From: Sanyastnella coralliicola
Lineage (GTDB): Bacteria > Bacteroidota > Bacteroidia > Flavobacteriales_D > Sanyastnellaceae
DNA length: 64,000 bases
Direction of reading: 5' to 3'
NCBI RefSeq assembly: GCF_030845195.1
Contig: NZ_CP132543.1
Coordinates: 947,501 to 1,011,500, forward strand
This document shows, piece after piece, positions 9,810-54,304 of the stretch (position 1 is the stretch's first letter; every line of letters starts with the position of its first letter). Made by a program: the position numbers and the translations under genes. The notes under the pieces were generated by a model that saw nothing but the letters and a program-made list of their open reading frames with translations, was not told where the DNA came from and searched no databases.

Positions 9810-9966
9810 ATAACAACCTCCCAAGTTGGCAGTGGGTCAAACTATCACCTGAAGGCTCTGAACTACAATTATTGCAGCCGCTCTAAATAAGAAGGGTGTT
9901 CGAACTAGAAAACTAAAACATCAATGTTGCGCATATTTGTGAACGTCAAAAAGCAGACGAATTTAT

Positions 9967-10155
9967 GTTCACAATCGTGTTTTCAGATTCCATGTTCACA
10001 ATTGCATTCGCGAAGTGCGTGTTCACAATCGTATTTTAATGACCCATGTTCACAATGACATTCGAGAAATGCGTGTTCACAATGGTGTTTCTGGGTTCTC
10101 TGTTCACAATGGCATTTCAGAATCGCCGGTTCACAATGCTTTCTCAAAGAATTCG
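9967..10155 (+). repeat. 27-bp tandem repeat array A (GTTCACAAT-led), seven units
   Basis: GTTCACAAT recurs at 9967, 9994, 10021, 10048, 10075, 10102 and 10129, exactly 27 bases apart. The remaining 18 bases of each unit vary around a purine/TTT/ATTC pattern. On the minus strand the period equals nine codons and reads HCEH-type peptides, but the frame has an internal TGA and no start. I therefore treat the array as non-coding. A second array of the same family lies at 10975-11150, on the other side of the XRE gene. Confidence 0.9.
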
Positions 10156-10974: not shown

Positions 10975-11150
10975 GTTCACAATTGTATTTTCGGATTTGT
11001 GTTCACAATGGTGTATTTGACTTTCGTGTTCACAATGATGTTTTTGGATTCTGTGTTCACAATTGTATTTGAGGAATGTGGTTTCACAATGGTGTTTGGG
11101 AATTCTGATTTCACAATTGTCTTTCAGGAATGTCGTTTCACAATTGTTCA
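10975..11150 (+). repeat. 27-bp tandem repeat array B (GTTCACAAT / TTTCACAAT), seven units
   Basis: Unit starts fall at 10975, 11001, 11028, 11055, 11082, 11109 and 11136, spaced 27 bases apart except for a first step of 26. The first four units begin GTTCACAAT and the last three TTTCACAAT, so sequence drifts along the array while spacing holds. Orientation is the same as array A. The last unit overlaps the 3' end of the minus-strand gene at 11138-11575 and supplies its stop codon. Confidence 0.9.
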
Positions 11151-12075: not shown

Positions 12076-12100
12076 GAGGGGAATATCCTAATTATTATTG

Positions 12101-12630
12101 AACCCCTCTGGGGTACTGGGTTTTCTCCTTAATCTTCAAGCAACAAGGTAGAATCCCTACGGCATATGGAGGGTTCTGTCTAGGTGATGCAGGGTTGGGT
12201 TTGTGGCGCCGTTAGGCGCCTCCTCTCTCCCTAGAAAATGCCATGGTAGGGACGGATAAAATCCGTCCGGAGCTATAGAACCCCTCTGGGGTACTGGGTT
12301 TTCTCCTTGATCTTCAAGCAACGAGGTAGAATACCTACGGGATATGGATGGTTCTGTCTAGGTGTTGCTGGGTTAGGTTTGTGGCGCCGTAGGCGCCTCC
12401 TCTCTCCCTAGAAAATGCCATGGTAGGGACGGATAAAATCCGTCCGGAGCTATAGAACCCCTCTAGGGTACTGGGTTTTCTCCTTGATCTTCAAGCAACG
12501 AGGTAGAATACCTACGGGATATGGAGGGTTCTGTCTAGGTGTTGCTGGGTTAGGTTTGTGGCGCCGTAGGCGCCTCCTCTTTCCTTAGAAAATGCCATGG
12601 TAGAGACGGATGAAATCCGTCCTTTAACGA
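12101..12630 (+). repeat. Three tandem copies of a ~177-bp hairpin-rich repeat
   Basis: Units start at 12101, 12279 and 12456 (spacing 178 and 177) and are nearly identical. Each unit carries four potential hairpins in order: ACCCC/GGGGT, GTAG/CTAC, GGCGCC-GTA-GGCGCC, and GGACGGAT-AAA-ATCCGTCC. The last unit is truncated after its GACGGATGAAATCCGTC arm. There is no open frame of note. The array fills the 607-base gap before the membrane-protein gene. It could specify a structured RNA or be a REP/MITE-like element; no adjacent transposase is present. Confidence 0.9.
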
Positions 12631-14435: not shown

Positions 14436-17426
14436 CTATTCAGCCAATTCACCCAGTAGGTCTTGATTCTCGCGTTGTTTCTGCGCTCTGATCGCATCAT
14501 AGATAACCTGCTGAATGTTTGTGCGGATATCCATCTTCAATAGTTTCCTATTGTCTGCATTTGGATAAACCCGGTTCGACAAAAATACATAAACAAGATC
14601 TTCTTCTGGGTCAGCCCATGCCAAAGTTCCTGTGAATCCTGAATGACCGAAACTAGCGCTGGATGCATCATTGCATGTTGGACCAGAATCCGGTTCTAGC
14701 GCGGGTTTGTCGAAGCCTACACCACGTCTGTTGTCATCGTAACAGTAGTGGCAAGTCGTGTATTCCTGAAGGGTGCTTGGTTGAATGTATTGAACGCCAC
14801 CGTATTCGCCGTCGTTCATGAACATCTGCATCATGATCGCGAGATCTTCCGCGTTAGCGAAAACACCTGCATGGCCACCAACACCACCAAGCATTGCCGC
14901 ACCTGGGTCATGTACATGTCCGTGAACCAATTGCTTACGGAACAACATGTCGTATTCGGTAGGTGCAATCTCCTTAATGTCTTGTCGCTCAAGCGGTAGA
15001 TACCCCATGCTCGAAAGACCCATGGGTTGGTAGAATACAGAGTCTACAAAGTTCTCAAGGCTTGTGCCGCTTGTTTTTTCAATCACCTTTTGAAGGAAGT
15101 AGTAGCCCAGGTCACTGTACTTGTATTCCTTTTCTGGACGAAGCGCAATCATATTGAGCTCTTGGTAGATTGAATCAGCATAGCTGTCACGAATGAATAG
15201 ATTCTCAGCGACCTTCGTTGTGAAACCGCGTGTAGCTTGCTTGCGGTAAAGTTCCGGACGAAGTTCTCCTTTATCGATCGTGTGCATGTAGAACGGAATC
15301 CAAGCGGGAAGCTGGGCGTAATGGCTGAGCATCTCACGCAAGTTCATATTGTAGCAAGACGAGGTGTCTGGCACTGTAATGTAGTCGCACAAGTTGTGGT
15401 CAAGATCGATCTTCCCTTCATCTTGGAGACGCATCAGTGAAGCGGTCGAAGCGACAATCTTTGTGATACTCGCCAAATCATAAATCGTTGAGCCGTCAAC
15501 AGGAATCTTGTTCTCGTAGGTTTGGTAGCCGTAGCTGCGGTCAACAATCACACTTCCATTCTTAATCACGAGCACACGACAGCCAGGGTAAGCCTGTTCT
15601 TTGATGCCTTCTAGGGCAATGCTGTCGATGCGAAGAAGGTCATCAGAATTCAGTCCTTCAAACTCGGGCATGGCATGTCGTAATCTCAACAGCTGGTCAA
15701 GTTGATCTCCTGAACCTGCCGGGAATACCAACCCACAGCTCACAGGAAGCGTTCCTTTCGCAAAGGCACCGCCCACCATGGCTTCAGCACAAATCTGCTG
15801 TGTCAGCGGATCGTCTTGATATGCCACCATCAGTCCATTCACGCGTTCTATTCCGCGCATGTTGCGAAGAGCGTACGGGTTAGTGAAGAGATTCACAGCC
15901 ACTGTAGTTTTCGAATTCAAGGCAGAGATGATACGCATGCTCTGGTTGGTCACTCCCCAGTTTTTGGAAGGACGATTGCTTGCATCGAGAAGATTGACAA
16001 TGACAAGGTCGTATTGACTCAATTCTGATTCAATCTTCTGAGAGGCAGAAAAGTCTGGAGTCTTCGGGTAGACAAAGACATCTGCGTCCATGTATTTCTG
16101 AAACTGTTCGCTGAACGCGGAAGCTTTCTTCACTCCTAAATCTAGGATGGCTACTTTCTTTCCTTCATACCCACGAAGCGGCAGCAATTTCTTTTCATTT
16201 TTCAACACGGTGAGCGACCCTTCGATAACTCTACGCTGAATTGCTTGTCCGGAAGGAGCGAGGAGATCAGCATAAAGTCCTTCACGACGAATGCTATCGT
16301 TTTCAGCAACCTGACACCATTCCTTTGCTCGAAGAATTCTCAACACGTGTTCATCTAGGGCTTCTTCGGTAAATTCTCCTGTTTCAATGGCTTCCTGAAT
16401 ACGCTTTGCAGCTGTAGGGACATCTCCGGCGAAAAGTAGAATGTCATTCCCGGCAAGCAGTGCTTTGAACTCAGCGTCTCCTGGTCCGGCGATATCAGCG
16501 ATACCGCGCATATTCAATGCGTCTGTGAAAACAAGCCCTTGAAAGCCGAGCTCTTTACGTAACAGATCATGGGTGATCTTGCGAGAAAGGGTAGAAGGTA
16601 GTCCACTAGAATCAAGCGCAGGAATATTCAAGTGCGCAATCATGACGCTTCCTGCTCCCTTGTTAAAGAGCGTGCGGAAAGGGTAGAGCTCCATGCTATC
16701 CAGTCGCTCTCTTGAGTGCAGGATAGATGGCAGCGTTTTGTGGGAGTCAGTATCAGTATCTCCGTGACCTGGGAAGTGTTTGACGTTCGCCAAGACGCCT
16801 CCGTCTTGAAGTCCACGCATATATGCTTCACCTAACCTTGAAACCAGCATTCGATCTTCGCCAAAAGCTCGGTTCCCTATTACGGGGTTGTCCGGATTTG
16901 AATTCACATCCACCACAGGAGAGAAGCTCACATGCACTCCCATGCGCTTCAACTGACGTGACTGTTCTAGTCCGAAATCATAAATCAAATTGTCATCATT
17001 GGTTGCACCCAGTGTCATTTGACGAGGGTAGTAGAGCACACTGTCTAAACGCATACCTAATCCCCATTCAGCATCCATCGAGATCAGCAACGGAATCTCG
17101 CTTATCTCTTGATACTTGTTGTTGAGAATGACTTGGCGCTGTGGTCCTCCTTGCATGAAGATCAACCCACCCACTTGATATTCGGAAATCAAGGTCTCAA
17201 TCTCCTTGACATGCATAGCATCTCGGTTCGAGTAGGCGGCCACCATGAAGAGCTGTCCAATCTTCGCCTTCAAATCCATCGTTTGAATCAACGAGTCAGC
17301 CCAGGGTGTCTCTGATTGCAAAAACACCGGAGGCATACGTCTATCCTGAAGCTGCGCATGCAGCGTTCCGCCGATAGGCGCAAAAAGAACAAGGAATGAT
17401 ATGATAGATAGGAGCCGCTTCAACAT
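14436..17426 (-). CDS. Fusion of GH3 beta-N-acetylhexosaminidase and serine beta-lactamase-like domain
   Basis: 996 residues with an N-terminal signal peptide (ending near LHAQ). Residues about 45-390 form a NagZ-like glycoside hydrolase family 3 domain: KHFPGHGDTDTDSHKTLP carries the His dyad (His221, His229) and VFTDALNM the nucleophile Asp302. A GH3 C-terminal-like domain follows (about 400-590). Residues about 610-970 form a class C beta-lactamase/penicillin-binding-like domain with SxxK in LASITK and the YSDLGYY and GHSGFTG elements. The likely role is muropeptide trimming or peptidoglycan recycling in the periplasm. The two-domain architecture is known in Bacteroidota. It begins the transcript that includes bshA. 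Confidence 0.93.
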   Translation of the reverse strand: MLKRLLSIISFLVLFAPIGGTLHAQLQDRRMPPVFLQSETPWADSLIQTMDLKAKIGQLFMVAAYSNRDAMHVKEIETLISEYQVGGLIFMQGGPQRQVILNNKYQEISEIPLLISMDAEWGLGMRLDSVLYYPRQMTLGATNDDNLIYDFGLEQSRQLKRMGVHVSFSPVVDVNSNPDNPVIGNRAFGEDRMLVSRLGEAYMRGLQDGGVLANVKHFPGHGDTDTDSHKTLPSILHSRERLDSMELYPFRTLFNKGAGSVMIAHLNIPALDSSGLPSTLSRKITHDLLRKELGFQGLVFTDALNMRGIADIAGPGDAEFKALLAGNDILLFAGDVPTAAKRIQEAIETGEFTEEALDEHVLRILRAKEWCQVAENDSIRREGLYADLLAPSGQAIQRRVIEGSLTVLKNEKKLLPLRGYEGKKVAILDLGVKKASAFSEQFQKYMDADVFVYPKTPDFSASQKIESELSQYDLVIVNLLDASNRPSKNWGVTNQSMRIISALNSKTTVAVNLFTNPYALRNMRGIERVNGLMVAYQDDPLTQQICAEAMVGGAFAKGTLPVSCGLVFPAGSGDQLDQLLRLRHAMPEFEGLNSDDLLRIDSIALEGIKEQAYPGCRVLVIKNGSVIVDRSYGYQTYENKIPVDGSTIYDLASITKIVASTASLMRLQDEGKIDLDHNLCDYITVPDTSSCYNMNLREMLSHYAQLPAWIPFYMHTIDKGELRPELYRKQATRGFTTKVAENLFIRDSYADSIYQELNMIALRPEKEYKYSDLGYYFLQKVIEKTSGTSLENFVDSVFYQPMGLSSMGYLPLERQDIKEIAPTEYDMLFRKQLVHGHVHDPGAAMLGGVGGHAGVFANAEDLAIMMQMFMNDGEYGGVQYIQPSTLQEYTTCHYCYDDNRRGVGFDKPALEPDSGPTCNDASSASFGHSGFTGTLAWADPEEDLVYVFLSNRVYPNADNRKLLKMDIRTNIQQVIYDAIRAQKQRENQDLLGELAE

Positions 17427-17542
17427 AATCTCTCGAAATTACAACGTGCAGAGGCCTCGCGAGCGCATGCGTTTTGCAATTATCAACACTTAGCTAAGAA
17501 CAACAAGCGTTCCAAGAATCCGCTGGCGGATTCTTGTTGAGC
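17427..17542. other. Upstream region of the GH3 gene with a shared 15-base motif
   Basis: TTATCAACACTTAGC at 17480-17494 is repeated with one difference (TTGTCAACACTTAGC) at 24091-24105. In both places it lies tens of bases upstream of a minus-strand gene start. It may be a promoter element. The remainder of the 389-base interval up to the four-helix-bundle gene is a heptamer array plus a hairpin GATTGCCCGAGGGCAATC near 17707. Confidence 0.4.
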
Positions 17543-17647
17543 GTGGTGCGTGGTGCGTGGTTTGTGGTTTGTGGTGCGTGGTTTGTGGTTTGTGGTGCGT
17601 GGTTTGTGGTTTGTGGTGCGTGGTGCGTGGTTCGTGGTACGTGGTGC
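17543..17647. repeat. Heptamer array GTGGTNN, 15 units (left arm around a gene)
   Basis: Fifteen uninterrupted 7-mers, all GTGGT followed by GC, TT, TC or AC, start at 17543. The complementary type (AACCACG) appears at 18204-18238 beyond the four-helix-bundle gene, so the two tracts form an inverted pair with the gene in between. Confidence 0.93.
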
Positions 17648-17815
17648 GTGGGGATATTATTCACTTCGCTTTGCGCAGTGCCATTTCACACAGACGAGTT
17701 GTAGGGATTGCCCGAGGGCAATCCTCTCTAAGCGTTCGTGGTGCGTTGATGAAACTTTGGGCGACAGAGGTAAAGTCATTTCTGAATGGAATCAGTCTTC
17801 GGATATATTCGGGGC

Positions 17816-18199
17816 ATGAATGAAAGTAACTGGGAGCGTTTGTTGGTGTGGCAGAAGTCAATGATGATAGCCAAAGACTGCTATCATATCATTATGCCAA
17901 TCAAGGAGGCCAAGGACTTTGGGTTTCACCAACACCTAATTAAAACCATGGTTTCTGTGAGTTCGAATATCGCAGAAGGAGCAGCAAGTGGCAGTCCGGC
18001 TGGATTTCATAAACATCTGAACCATGCAACGGGGTCAGCTGCAGAATTATCAACCCAACTCGATCTGACAGTTCAATTTGGATATACTTCAGCAGAAAAG
18101 GTAGAAAGAGTCAAGGAAGAAATCAAAGTGCTTATCAAGCAATTGAATGCTCTAAAAGCCAGCCTCAGAAGACGCCACAACCTAAGTCAAAAGTGGTAA
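17816..18199 (+). CDS. Four-helix-bundle protein (S23/avd-like family)
   Basis: A roughly 14-kDa helical protein of the family first seen as ORFs in intervening sequences of bacterial 23S rRNA and related to Avd of diversity-generating retroelements. The hallmark VSSNIAEGAASGS lies around residues 45-57, preceded by WERLLVWQKSM at the start. ATG 17816 is preferred because it gives the usual short N-terminus; ATG 17786 would add ten residues. No 23S rRNA or reverse transcriptase is nearby. Instead the gene lies between inverted heptamer arrays, an isolated plus-strand insertion in a minus-strand block. Biological role unknown, probably nucleic-acid binding. Confidence 0.88.
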   Translation: MNESNWERLLVWQKSMMIAKDCYHIIMPIKEAKDFGFHQHLIKTMVSVSSNIAEGAASGSPAGFHKHLNHATGSAAELSTQLDLTVQFGYTSAEKVERVKEEIKVLIKQLNALKASLRRRHNLSQKW

Positions 18200-18203
18200 A
18201 CAG

Positions 18204-18238
18204 CCCCACGAACCACGAACCACGAACCACGAACAACG
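18204..18238. repeat. Heptamer array AACCACG, five units (right arm around a gene)
   Basis: Five phased 7-mers complementary in type to the GTGGTNN array at 17543-17647. They start five bases after the stop codon of the four-helix-bundle gene and end next to the stop codon of cmk on the other strand. Confidence 0.85.
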
Positions 18239-18242
18239 CACC

Positions 18243-18941
18243 TCAAGACGGAACAGCCAACACCTTATTCACATGATTCATCGCAAACACAAACTGCTCA
18301 TCCATGGTAAGATTCGAGTTGTCAACTACCACGGCATCTTCGGCTTGGCGGAGTGGGTCAGTTGAGCGAGTTGAGTCAATTTGATCGCGTTGCTTGACGT
18401 TCTCTAGGACTTCTTCGTAAGTGACTTCGAGTCCGTTGTTTTTGAGTTCGTTGAAACGGCGTTGAGCGCGTACTTCTGGGTCAGCAGTCATGAAGAACTT
18501 CACCTCTGCGTCAGGGAGTACTACGGTCCCGATATCTCGGCCATCCATCACAACACCGCGTACTTCTGCCATACGCTGTTGAAGTTTTACAAGCTTCATG
18601 CGTACTTCAGGAATGGCAGCGACCGGACTAACGAATTTCGAAACCTGCATAGATCTGATCTCCTTCTCGACGTTCTTACCGTTAAGATGAGTTTCTGATC
18701 GCTTAGTGTCGGTATTGTACTTGAAAGTGATGTACGCGCTGTCGATCATTGCTTTTAGCTTGTCGACATTGAGTTCATCGTTGCGAATGAGATGACTTTT
18801 CAGTGCGAAGAGTGTCATCGCGCGATACATCGCACCTGTATCTATGTAGATATAGTTGAGTTCCTTTGCGATGGACTTGGCTAAGGTGCTTTTACCACAT
18901 GATGAATAACCATCAATAGCGATGTTAATCTTCTTTCTCAC
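18243..18941 (-). CDS. cmk: Cytidylate kinase
   Basis: Phosphorylates CMP and dCMP with ATP in the cytosol. The P-loop is GYSSCGKST (residues 11-19). YIDTGAMYRAMT (the nucleoside-monophosphate site), VMDGRDIGTVV and DPEVRAQRRFNEL (lid) are all in place. The 232-residue length is typical. It follows porQ on the same strand after 56 bases; porQ-cmk pairing is a familiar arrangement in this phylum. Confidence 0.96.
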   Translation of the reverse strand: MRKKINIAIDGYSSCGKSTLAKSIAKELNYIYIDTGAMYRAMTLFALKSHLIRNDELNVDKLKAMIDSAYITFKYNTDTKRSETHLNGKNVEKEIRSMQVSKFVSPVAAIPEVRMKLVKLQQRMAEVRGVVMDGRDIGTVVLPDAEVKFFMTADPEVRAQRRFNELKNNGLEVTYEEVLENVKQRDQIDSTRSTDPLRQAEDAVVVDNSNLTMDEQFVFAMNHVNKVLAVPS

Positions 18942-40750: not shown

Positions 40751-40827
40751 GCCTTAGGCGTTAGGCTATAGGCTTTAGGCGTTAGTGGGGCTATAGCCTA
40801 TGGCCTAACGCCTATAGCCTAGTGGCT
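40751..40827. repeat. Heptamer hairpin (GNNTTAG / ATAGCCT)
   Basis: Five 7-mers of the GCGTTAG type (40751-40785), one 7-base joint, then complementary 7-mers of the ATAGCCT type (40793-40827). The seven-base phase continues through the joint, and the two arms can pair. A second hairpin AGTGGC-TTA-GCCACT straddles the end of the Rof-like gene. The locus lies between the DUF547 start and the Rof-like stop codon. Confidence 0.9.
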
Positions 40828-49037: not shown

Positions 49038-49066
49038 AAAGCTCCCTTTTTGGGGGCTTTTTTTTG
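49038..49066 (+). terminator. Rho-independent terminator of dnaN
   Basis: AAAGCTCCC pairs with GGGGGCTTT around TTTTT, followed by TTTTTT and G. It lies 30 bases after the dnaN stop codon and ends exactly where the TCCGGCG heptamer array begins. Confidence 0.85.
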
Positions 49067-49128
49067 TCCGGCGTCCGGCGTCCGGCGTCCGAAGGGAAAC
49101 TCTTACGGATGCCGGACGCCGGATGCCG
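49067..49128. repeat. Heptamer hairpin (TCCGGCG / GATGCCG)
   Basis: Four 7-mers TCCGGCG (last TCCGAAG) at 49067-49094, then a 13-base loop region, then GATGCCG, GACGCCG, GATGCCG at 49108-49128. The arms are complementary. It lies tail-to-tail between the dnaN terminator and the rhomboid stop codon. Confidence 0.93.
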
Positions 49129-49135
49129 GAATCTG

Positions 49136-53889: not shown

Positions 53890-54304
<415 letters not shown>

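Follow-up and report, generated by a model that had tools for sequence, protein, structure and literature searches.

An S23-family gene between inverted heptamer arrays in Sanyastnella coralliicola as a probable copy of a widespread IVS-like hairpin unit

The S23-family gene enclosed by inverted heptamer arrays in the 64,000-nucleotide stretch of Sanyastnella coralliicola DNA analyzed here (the window) is best explained, at a probability of roughly 0.58, as one copy of a widespread selfish hairpin unit that resembles the intervening sequences (IVSs) of rRNA and resides outside rRNA. In such a unit, inverted heptamer arrays private to each copy would form the arms of a long, imperfect stem that carries an S23 gene in its loop. 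The underlying observation is confirmed, and what it describes extends far beyond the window. Architecture, recurrence, locus-specific arms, strand asymmetry, and presence or absence at junctions are all evident from the sequences compared, whereas RNase III excision, mobility, and a role for the S23 protein are inferred.

The unit in the window and its counterparts in the same genome

The genome of the window (G000; 4.10 Mb, one contig) was considered together with its sister (G001) and with G002, of the same genus. The features of the locus are as follows.

14436-17426, minus strand: neighboring gene for a GH3/beta-lactamase domain protein
17513-17536, no strand assigned: palindrome of 24 nt bordering the left array on its outer side, with a stem of 10 bp and a loop of 4 nt, common to G001, read from the sequence
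17541-17651, plus strand: left arm, GTGGTNN heptamer array (period 7, 15.9 copies, 85% matches)
17749-17776, plus strand: upstream element common to other S23 genes of G000 and G001 (alignment of upstream regions), candidate promoter or operator
17786-18199, plus strand: S23/IVP (PF05635) gene, 137 amino acids (ORF and Pfam match)
18206-18242, plus strand: right arm, inverted AACCACG (CCACGAA) array (5.3 copies, 90% matches)
18243-18941, minus strand: neighboring gene for cytidylate kinase

An earlier note, made from the sequence alone, had described fifteen units to the left of an S23-like gene and five inverted units to its right, and this description holds well: the arrays measure 15.9 and 5.3 copies on either side of a gene whose product matches PF05635 at 86.4 bits (cut-off 33.8), although by eye the right array comprises four good units and a degenerate fifth. 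PF05635 is the sole family matched by the nested gene, and the S23 profile matches the solved structure XCC0516 (2gsc) with an E value of 1.4e-37. An alternative start at 17816 would yield a protein of 127 amino acids; a PADLOC search with the S23 protein gave no match. The gene was also correctly placed as a plus-strand insert in a minus-strand block, both neighbors being encoded on the minus strand, and the idea of a transcript folding with the gene in its loop agrees with a predicted RNA fold (-241.7 kcal/mol; z of -3.4 against 20 shuffles) that encloses the ORF between arms joined by paired runs of 7, 16, and 12 bp. For the unit at locus L188, the predicted fold has a z of -2.0 and is equaled by 2 of 100 shuffles.

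Ten period-7 arrays above the score threshold occur in the window, with none at periods 5, 6, or 8 to 11, and a single base-shuffled version of the window yielded no period-7 array. Repeats of other kinds are also present there, namely, a 177-nt unit in three tandem copies (12096-12622; 95% matches) and two arrays with a period of 54 nt (9966-10137 and 10976-11144) built on TGTTCACAAT / TTCACAATGG.

When the upstream regions of the S23 genes of G000 and G001 are aligned, a common element resembling GTGAARTTTTGGTYGACG..TGTAAARTNNTTGTT emerges; some copies contain a pair of GTAAAGT-like boxes at a distance of about 21 nt. As a motif search of the window gave no excess, the consensus with three mismatches allowed being no commoner than by chance and the exact gapped form being absent, it is the alignment that points to this putative element.

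A genome search for further four-helix-bundle genes with flanking arrays had been proposed as a check in the earlier note. G000 carries eight PF05635 genes, and on reading their flanks all eight have inverted arms, each of a different heptamer type. When complementarity was scored by local alignment of one 500-nt flank against the reverse complement of the other, seven of the eight loci scored at least 20 in the inverted orientation; the eighth (L122) scored 18, below its direct-orientation score of 25. Each left flank was then aligned with every right flank over 250 nt, and at all eight loci its own right flank was the best partner, with a mean of 30.9 for own pairs against 9.8 for cross pairs, a difference reached in 0 of 2,000 permutations. 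The matching of arms is therefore specific to the locus and does not reflect one shared motif. Among units of the gmk-nadD group described below, own pairing was not clearly better (186 of 2,000 permutations).

Recurrence across relatives, phyla, and plasmids

Of 395 genomes examined from the class, 301 contain PF05635, and the association of S23 genes with complementary flanks recurs in the family, in other phyla, and on plasmids. In the family sample (8 genomes; 49 S23 loci found, 41 fetched, and 39 scored), 32 of 39 S23 loci have an inverted flank score of at least 20, these loci not being independent of one another, as all eight G000 loci have syntenic partners in G001. An inverted score of 20 is attained by 6 of the 305 remaining genes in these stretches and by 7 of 102 control genes matched for spacers of at least 100 nt on both sides (drawn from the family stretches and 40 further stretches; Fisher P of about 3e-18 against the S23 loci). 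In the direct orientation, 7 of the 39 S23 loci attain it. Two of the seven S23 loci below 20 lie in G001, where 8 of 10 loci reach the score, and two lie in G002. Among the best-listed loci of other relatives, 20 of 25 reach 16 inverted and 7 of 25 direct; left out of this count were three loci that the family sample already contained, three more duplicates, and one locus with a short flank.

For a broader set, one genome per species was scanned and the best 80 of at least 585 loci were taken, 77 of them with enough flank; as the scan used eight closer S23 rows, these named loci are biased toward one S23 subfamily. Within this best 80, spread over many phyla, an inverted score of at least 16 is found at 62 of 77 loci and a direct one at 17 of 77, compared with inverted scores of at least 16 in 4 of 63 distal pairs and 26 of 216 neighboring genes. 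Periodicity of 7 is modest among the same best 80 of at least 585 (a score of at least 14 is reached by 20 of 77 loci and by 7 of 63 distal controls); five loci have period 8, and none has a period of 4 to 6 or 9 to 12. Four draft contigs (L128, L132, L133, and L135) end about 320 bases or less from the S23 match, as if hairpins break assemblies.

Plasmids carry the arrangement as well. S23 matches were found in 37 plasmid records, and of the 14 examined, 13 reach 16 inverted, 3 reach it direct, and 11 favor their own partner. On the cyanobacterial plasmids L347, L349, and L359, the S23 gene lies with complementary arms inside CRISPR operons (cas6/cas4 and cmr2/cmr3). Phage records searched with one S23 query gave no match. 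At the level of whole genomes, the co-occurrence of heptamer arrays and S23 genes is suggestive only: arrays scoring at least 16 were counted in stretches no longer than 20 kb, most of them around cmk, and number 0 in 273 kb from 16 S23-free genomes, 4 in 386 kb from 22 genomes with at least three S23 genes, and 14 in 104 kb from G000, to which the window contributes (one-sided P of 0.044 with two extra G000 stretches and 0.069 without G000 at score 12).

Junctions, strand, and arrays without the gene

Conserved gene pairs allow the same site to be viewed with and without the unit. The cytidylate kinase and GH3 genes are adjacent in all 30 loci examined, and a comparison with relatives of the kind called for in the earlier note finds 28 of these syntenic loci without S23 and 2, in G000 and G001, with S23 and arrays on both sides. 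The left array of the G001 copy has about 4 units, against 15.9 copies in G000. Spacers were printed for 18 of the 30 loci and comprise, besides the two with S23, 13 of 118 to 388 nt and 3 with another insert of about 1 kb; that of G002 measures 166 nt and by eye holds neither gene nor array. At a second site in G000 and G001, the flanks are about 95% alike, and the S23 genes and arms are clearly different. A third site holds a broken S23 gene in TTGGTNN arms in G001 and, in G000, an unrelated heptamer array with no S23 gene.

Four units of the named set lie between genes identified from Pfam matches as 3-hydroxyacyl-CoA dehydrogenase and thiolase, guanylate kinase and a cytidylyltransferase-like (nadD-like) protein, the succinate dehydrogenase flavoprotein and iron-sulfur subunits, and thiolase and acyl-CoA dehydrogenase, the corresponding genes being taken by us to be fadB, gmk, nadD, sdhA, and sdhB. 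The sdhA and sdhB genes are adjacent in 37 of 37 loci, 9 with S23 (7 of them chosen for it) and 28 without, and their spacer measures 434 to 626 nt in the former and 4 to 122 nt in the latter. Similarly, fadB and the thiolase gene are adjacent in 41 of 43 loci, with S23 in the spacer at 16 (13 chosen for it); the 25 S23-free spacers measure 3 to 167 nt in 23 cases and 622 and 720 nt in two with other inserts. Presence is sporadic at all three junctions, including the 2 of 30 at cmk. Bare heptamer hairpins were seen by eye in S23-free operon spacers (L248, L251, L253, L255, L276-L278, and L285), and in G447 a heptamer hairpin occupies sdhA-sdhB with no PF05635 among the matches listed. The same junction can thus be found in three states: empty, with a bare hairpin, or with a hairpin that contains the gene.

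In a tree of S23 rows, in which many forks are unresolved, those at sdhA-sdhB form one group, as do those at gmk-nadD, and the fadB-thiolase junction requires three changes and the thiolase/acyl-CoA dehydrogenase junction four. S23 units remain at a site for a long time and have probably arrived at some sites more than once.

Strand adds a further regularity. Where arms score at least 16, G outnumbers C in the arm upstream of S23 in 98 of 113 cases, a raw count that would include any general base skew before genes (57 of 63 in the named set, that is, the best 80 of at least 585; 26 of 35 in the family; 15 of 15 in the order). Orientation, for which the counts rest on simple ORF calls, differs between sets. 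Among the best 80 of at least 585 named loci, the S23 gene is co-directional with both neighbors at 64 and opposed to both at 2, whereas among the 41 loci of the window's family it is co-directional with both at 5 and opposed to both at 16 (0 and 6, respectively, of the 8 in G000); ordinary triples with same-strand neighbors in these stretches number 162 same and 64 opposed. Units accordingly occur in two settings: in the sense orientation within operons and, in the window's genus, as an antisense element that may have its own promoter. Being antisense to its neighbors in that genus, S23 cannot there be regarded simply as inserted into the transcript of a host operon.

A cassette that serves its host, in which the hairpin tunes neighboring operon genes and S23 acts as a feedback RNA-binding protein, could accommodate both the long persistence suggested by the single tree groups at sdhA-sdhB and gmk-nadD and the upstream element common to the S23 genes of G000 and G001. 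We nevertheless consider it quite unlikely in view of the sporadic presence at the same junctions, the broken S23 copies, the unrelated host operons (CRISPR operons included), and the antisense placement in the window's genus.

Arrays also occur apart from the gene. Heptamer arrays were sampled in 241 kb of G000, a set of regions that takes in those around S23 genes; of the 94 arrays found, 60 have no inverted partner within 900 nt and 34 have one. Thirteen of the latter, at five loci, pair across 487 to 869 nt and all enclose S23, and 21 pair across 5 to 311 nt, none enclosing S23. Gene-less examples within the window are as follows.

2660-2753, no strand assigned: inverted pair of GTGGT/ACCAC type, loop of about 8 nt
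40754-40821: inverted heptamer pair
49066-49130, no strand assigned: inverted pair GTCCGGC/CGGATGC, loop of 14 nt
53986-54302, no strand assigned: inverted arrays GGTTGAC / GTCAACC-GTCCACC

Moreover, a longer pair of inverted CCGTCCA / GGTAGAC heptamer arrays at L343:7408-8497 encloses a DUF5996 gene, so the enclosure of S23 by widely spaced pairs is not an absolute rule. The earlier note had held that arrays lying apart from the gene, with no co-occurrence of the two, would speak against its reading; on this point the outcome is divided, as gene-less arrays are common and complementary flanks nonetheless recur at S23 genes.

These arrays bear on the possibility that the heptamers are ordinary slippage repeats of spacers in which S23, also spacer-dwelling, is found by accident. 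Many arrays without S23, the enclosed DUF5996 gene, and the reported over-representation of heptameric repeats in many bacteria (PMC4692102) would all fit. The arms, on the other hand, match far better within a locus than between loci, complementary flanks mark 32 of 39 S23 loci against 7 of 102 spacer-matched genes, and the same arrangement appears in unrelated phyla and on plasmids. Given the own-partner test and the spacer-matched controls, this explanation is already disfavored, and we regard it as unlikely.

The gene-less copies bear equally on an explanation at the level of DNA. REPIN/RAYT systems consist of short dispersed hairpins, some of which enclose a gene flanked by its own repeat type, and the S23 units resemble them in that the repeats flanking the nested gene are of a type found elsewhere in the genome too. 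By extension, the hairpins could be nonautonomous elements, each S23 protein mobilizing its own repeat type in trans. Triple GTGGTNN units number 94 and 70 on the two strands, against 7 and 14 for a reversed control; gene-less inverted pairs are present in G000, as are, at other places, cousins of the TTGGTNN arms of a G001 unit, and bare hairpins stand at S23-free operon junctions. Unlike in REPIN/RAYT systems, no transposase is present, as the nested gene matches PF05635 only, and the arms are variable heptamer arrays in place of fixed palindromes. Neither the strand bias of the arms nor that of insertion in operons would be expected of a purely DNA-level element, and comparing flanks with S23-free sites by eye established no target-site duplication, the edges of the unit blurring into the arrays. 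This reading, too, seems to us rather unlikely.

Relation to known systems and implications

The closest published counterpart of the unit is the 23S rRNA IVS. That of Coxiella carries an S23 ORF and a 28-bp terminal inverted repeat and is subject to RNase III cutting, with tandem GACAGAT heptamers in variable number before the ORF (PMC4990558). Like rRNA IVSs of the Coxiella and Leptospira type, the unit described here has an S23-family ORF in a stem of complementary ends and is present sporadically at a given site among relatives. Unlike them, the window unit lies between protein genes and not in an rRNA gene, and the one 23S match of G000 (C1:327478-329789) contains none of the eight S23 genes. 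It differs from the Coxiella IVS in having heptamer arrays on both sides that vary between loci and many copies per genome. Since its location does not agree with the definition of an rRNA IVS, we call it IVS-like. The parallel drawn in the earlier note is accordingly upheld in part: all eight G000 loci, other phyla, plasmids, and the Coxiella IVS speak for it, and the common gene-less arrays and the antisense placement in the genus speak against it. Separately, the 23S match at L346:1501-3812 covers positions 1 to 2925 of the model in just 2,312 nt, which may reflect an unusually short gene or a gap in the record.

Under the IVS-like reading, the unit would act at the RNA level, in a fold whose loop contains the ORF. 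RNase III would cut the stem, by analogy with published rRNA IVSs, and units would persist at places where the RNA can be broken without harm, namely, between the ORFs of operons, at the tips of rRNA hairpins, or in a spacer behind their own promoter, the last of which would describe the window unit. Slippage together with copying from arm to arm could keep the arms matched as the heptamer drifts. It is further conceivable that the S23 ring protein promotes the persistence or spread of the unit by binding to its stem or to the RNA once excised, and that gene-less heptamer hairpins are deletion products or landing sites of the unit. The proposed role of the protein is weakened in the case of Coxiella, where the S23 protein was judged probably not to be made in vivo; the discussion in that report treats the role of the S23/IVP protein and the origin of rRNA IVSs as open questions (PMC4990558).

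PF05635, represented by the solved S23 protein XCC0516 (2gsc) from Xanthomonas campestris, resembles Avd of diversity-generating retroelements (DGRs), a related four-helix protein (PMC10053308), and the gene could on that basis be an Avd-like accessory part of a DGR. The only reverse transcriptase found in G000 lies at L345:294-2637 after a Pycsar-cyclase-like gene, and this sole RVT_1 match is a DRT8-type defense protein. As no DGR reverse transcriptase was found in G000, unlike what a DGR with Avd would entail, the DGR reading is disfavored and appears very improbable.

Intergenic arrays of period 7 are themselves known, and those described here resemble the GGGAATC heptamers of Xanthomonas campestris, in which 70 inverted pairs are able to form stem-loops (PMC4692102), and the TAACTGA heptameric repeats of Beggiatoaceae and others (PMC4679880). 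The terms "S23," "four helix," and "intervening" are absent from PMC4692102, as are "23S" and "intervening" from PMC4679880, and excerpts of PMC10910872 and PMC5787105 mention the S23 family without arrays. Among open-licence papers, we found none that connects heptamer arms with S23 genes other than in the Coxiella IVS.

It could be speculated, somewhat short of even odds, that S23 genes mark a class of selfish RNA hairpins across phyla and plasmids, of which the rRNA IVS is a special case. Its members would have their own heptamer stems, would reside in operon mRNAs (sdh, fad, cas, and cmr) or behind their own promoter, would be cut out and not spliced, and would shed gene-less hairpins that make up part of bacterial heptamer repeats. 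If so, part of the over-representation of heptamer repeats would be explained, S23 genes in CRISPR or DGR neighborhoods would often be passengers and not partners, and the units would offer a clear case of arms that are matched within a locus and yet differ between loci. If the heptamer stem is indeed a shared hallmark, there would be many natural units outside rRNA in well-known operons, including those of harmless bacteria, and such operon-borne units would allow tests of processing, protein binding, and spread.
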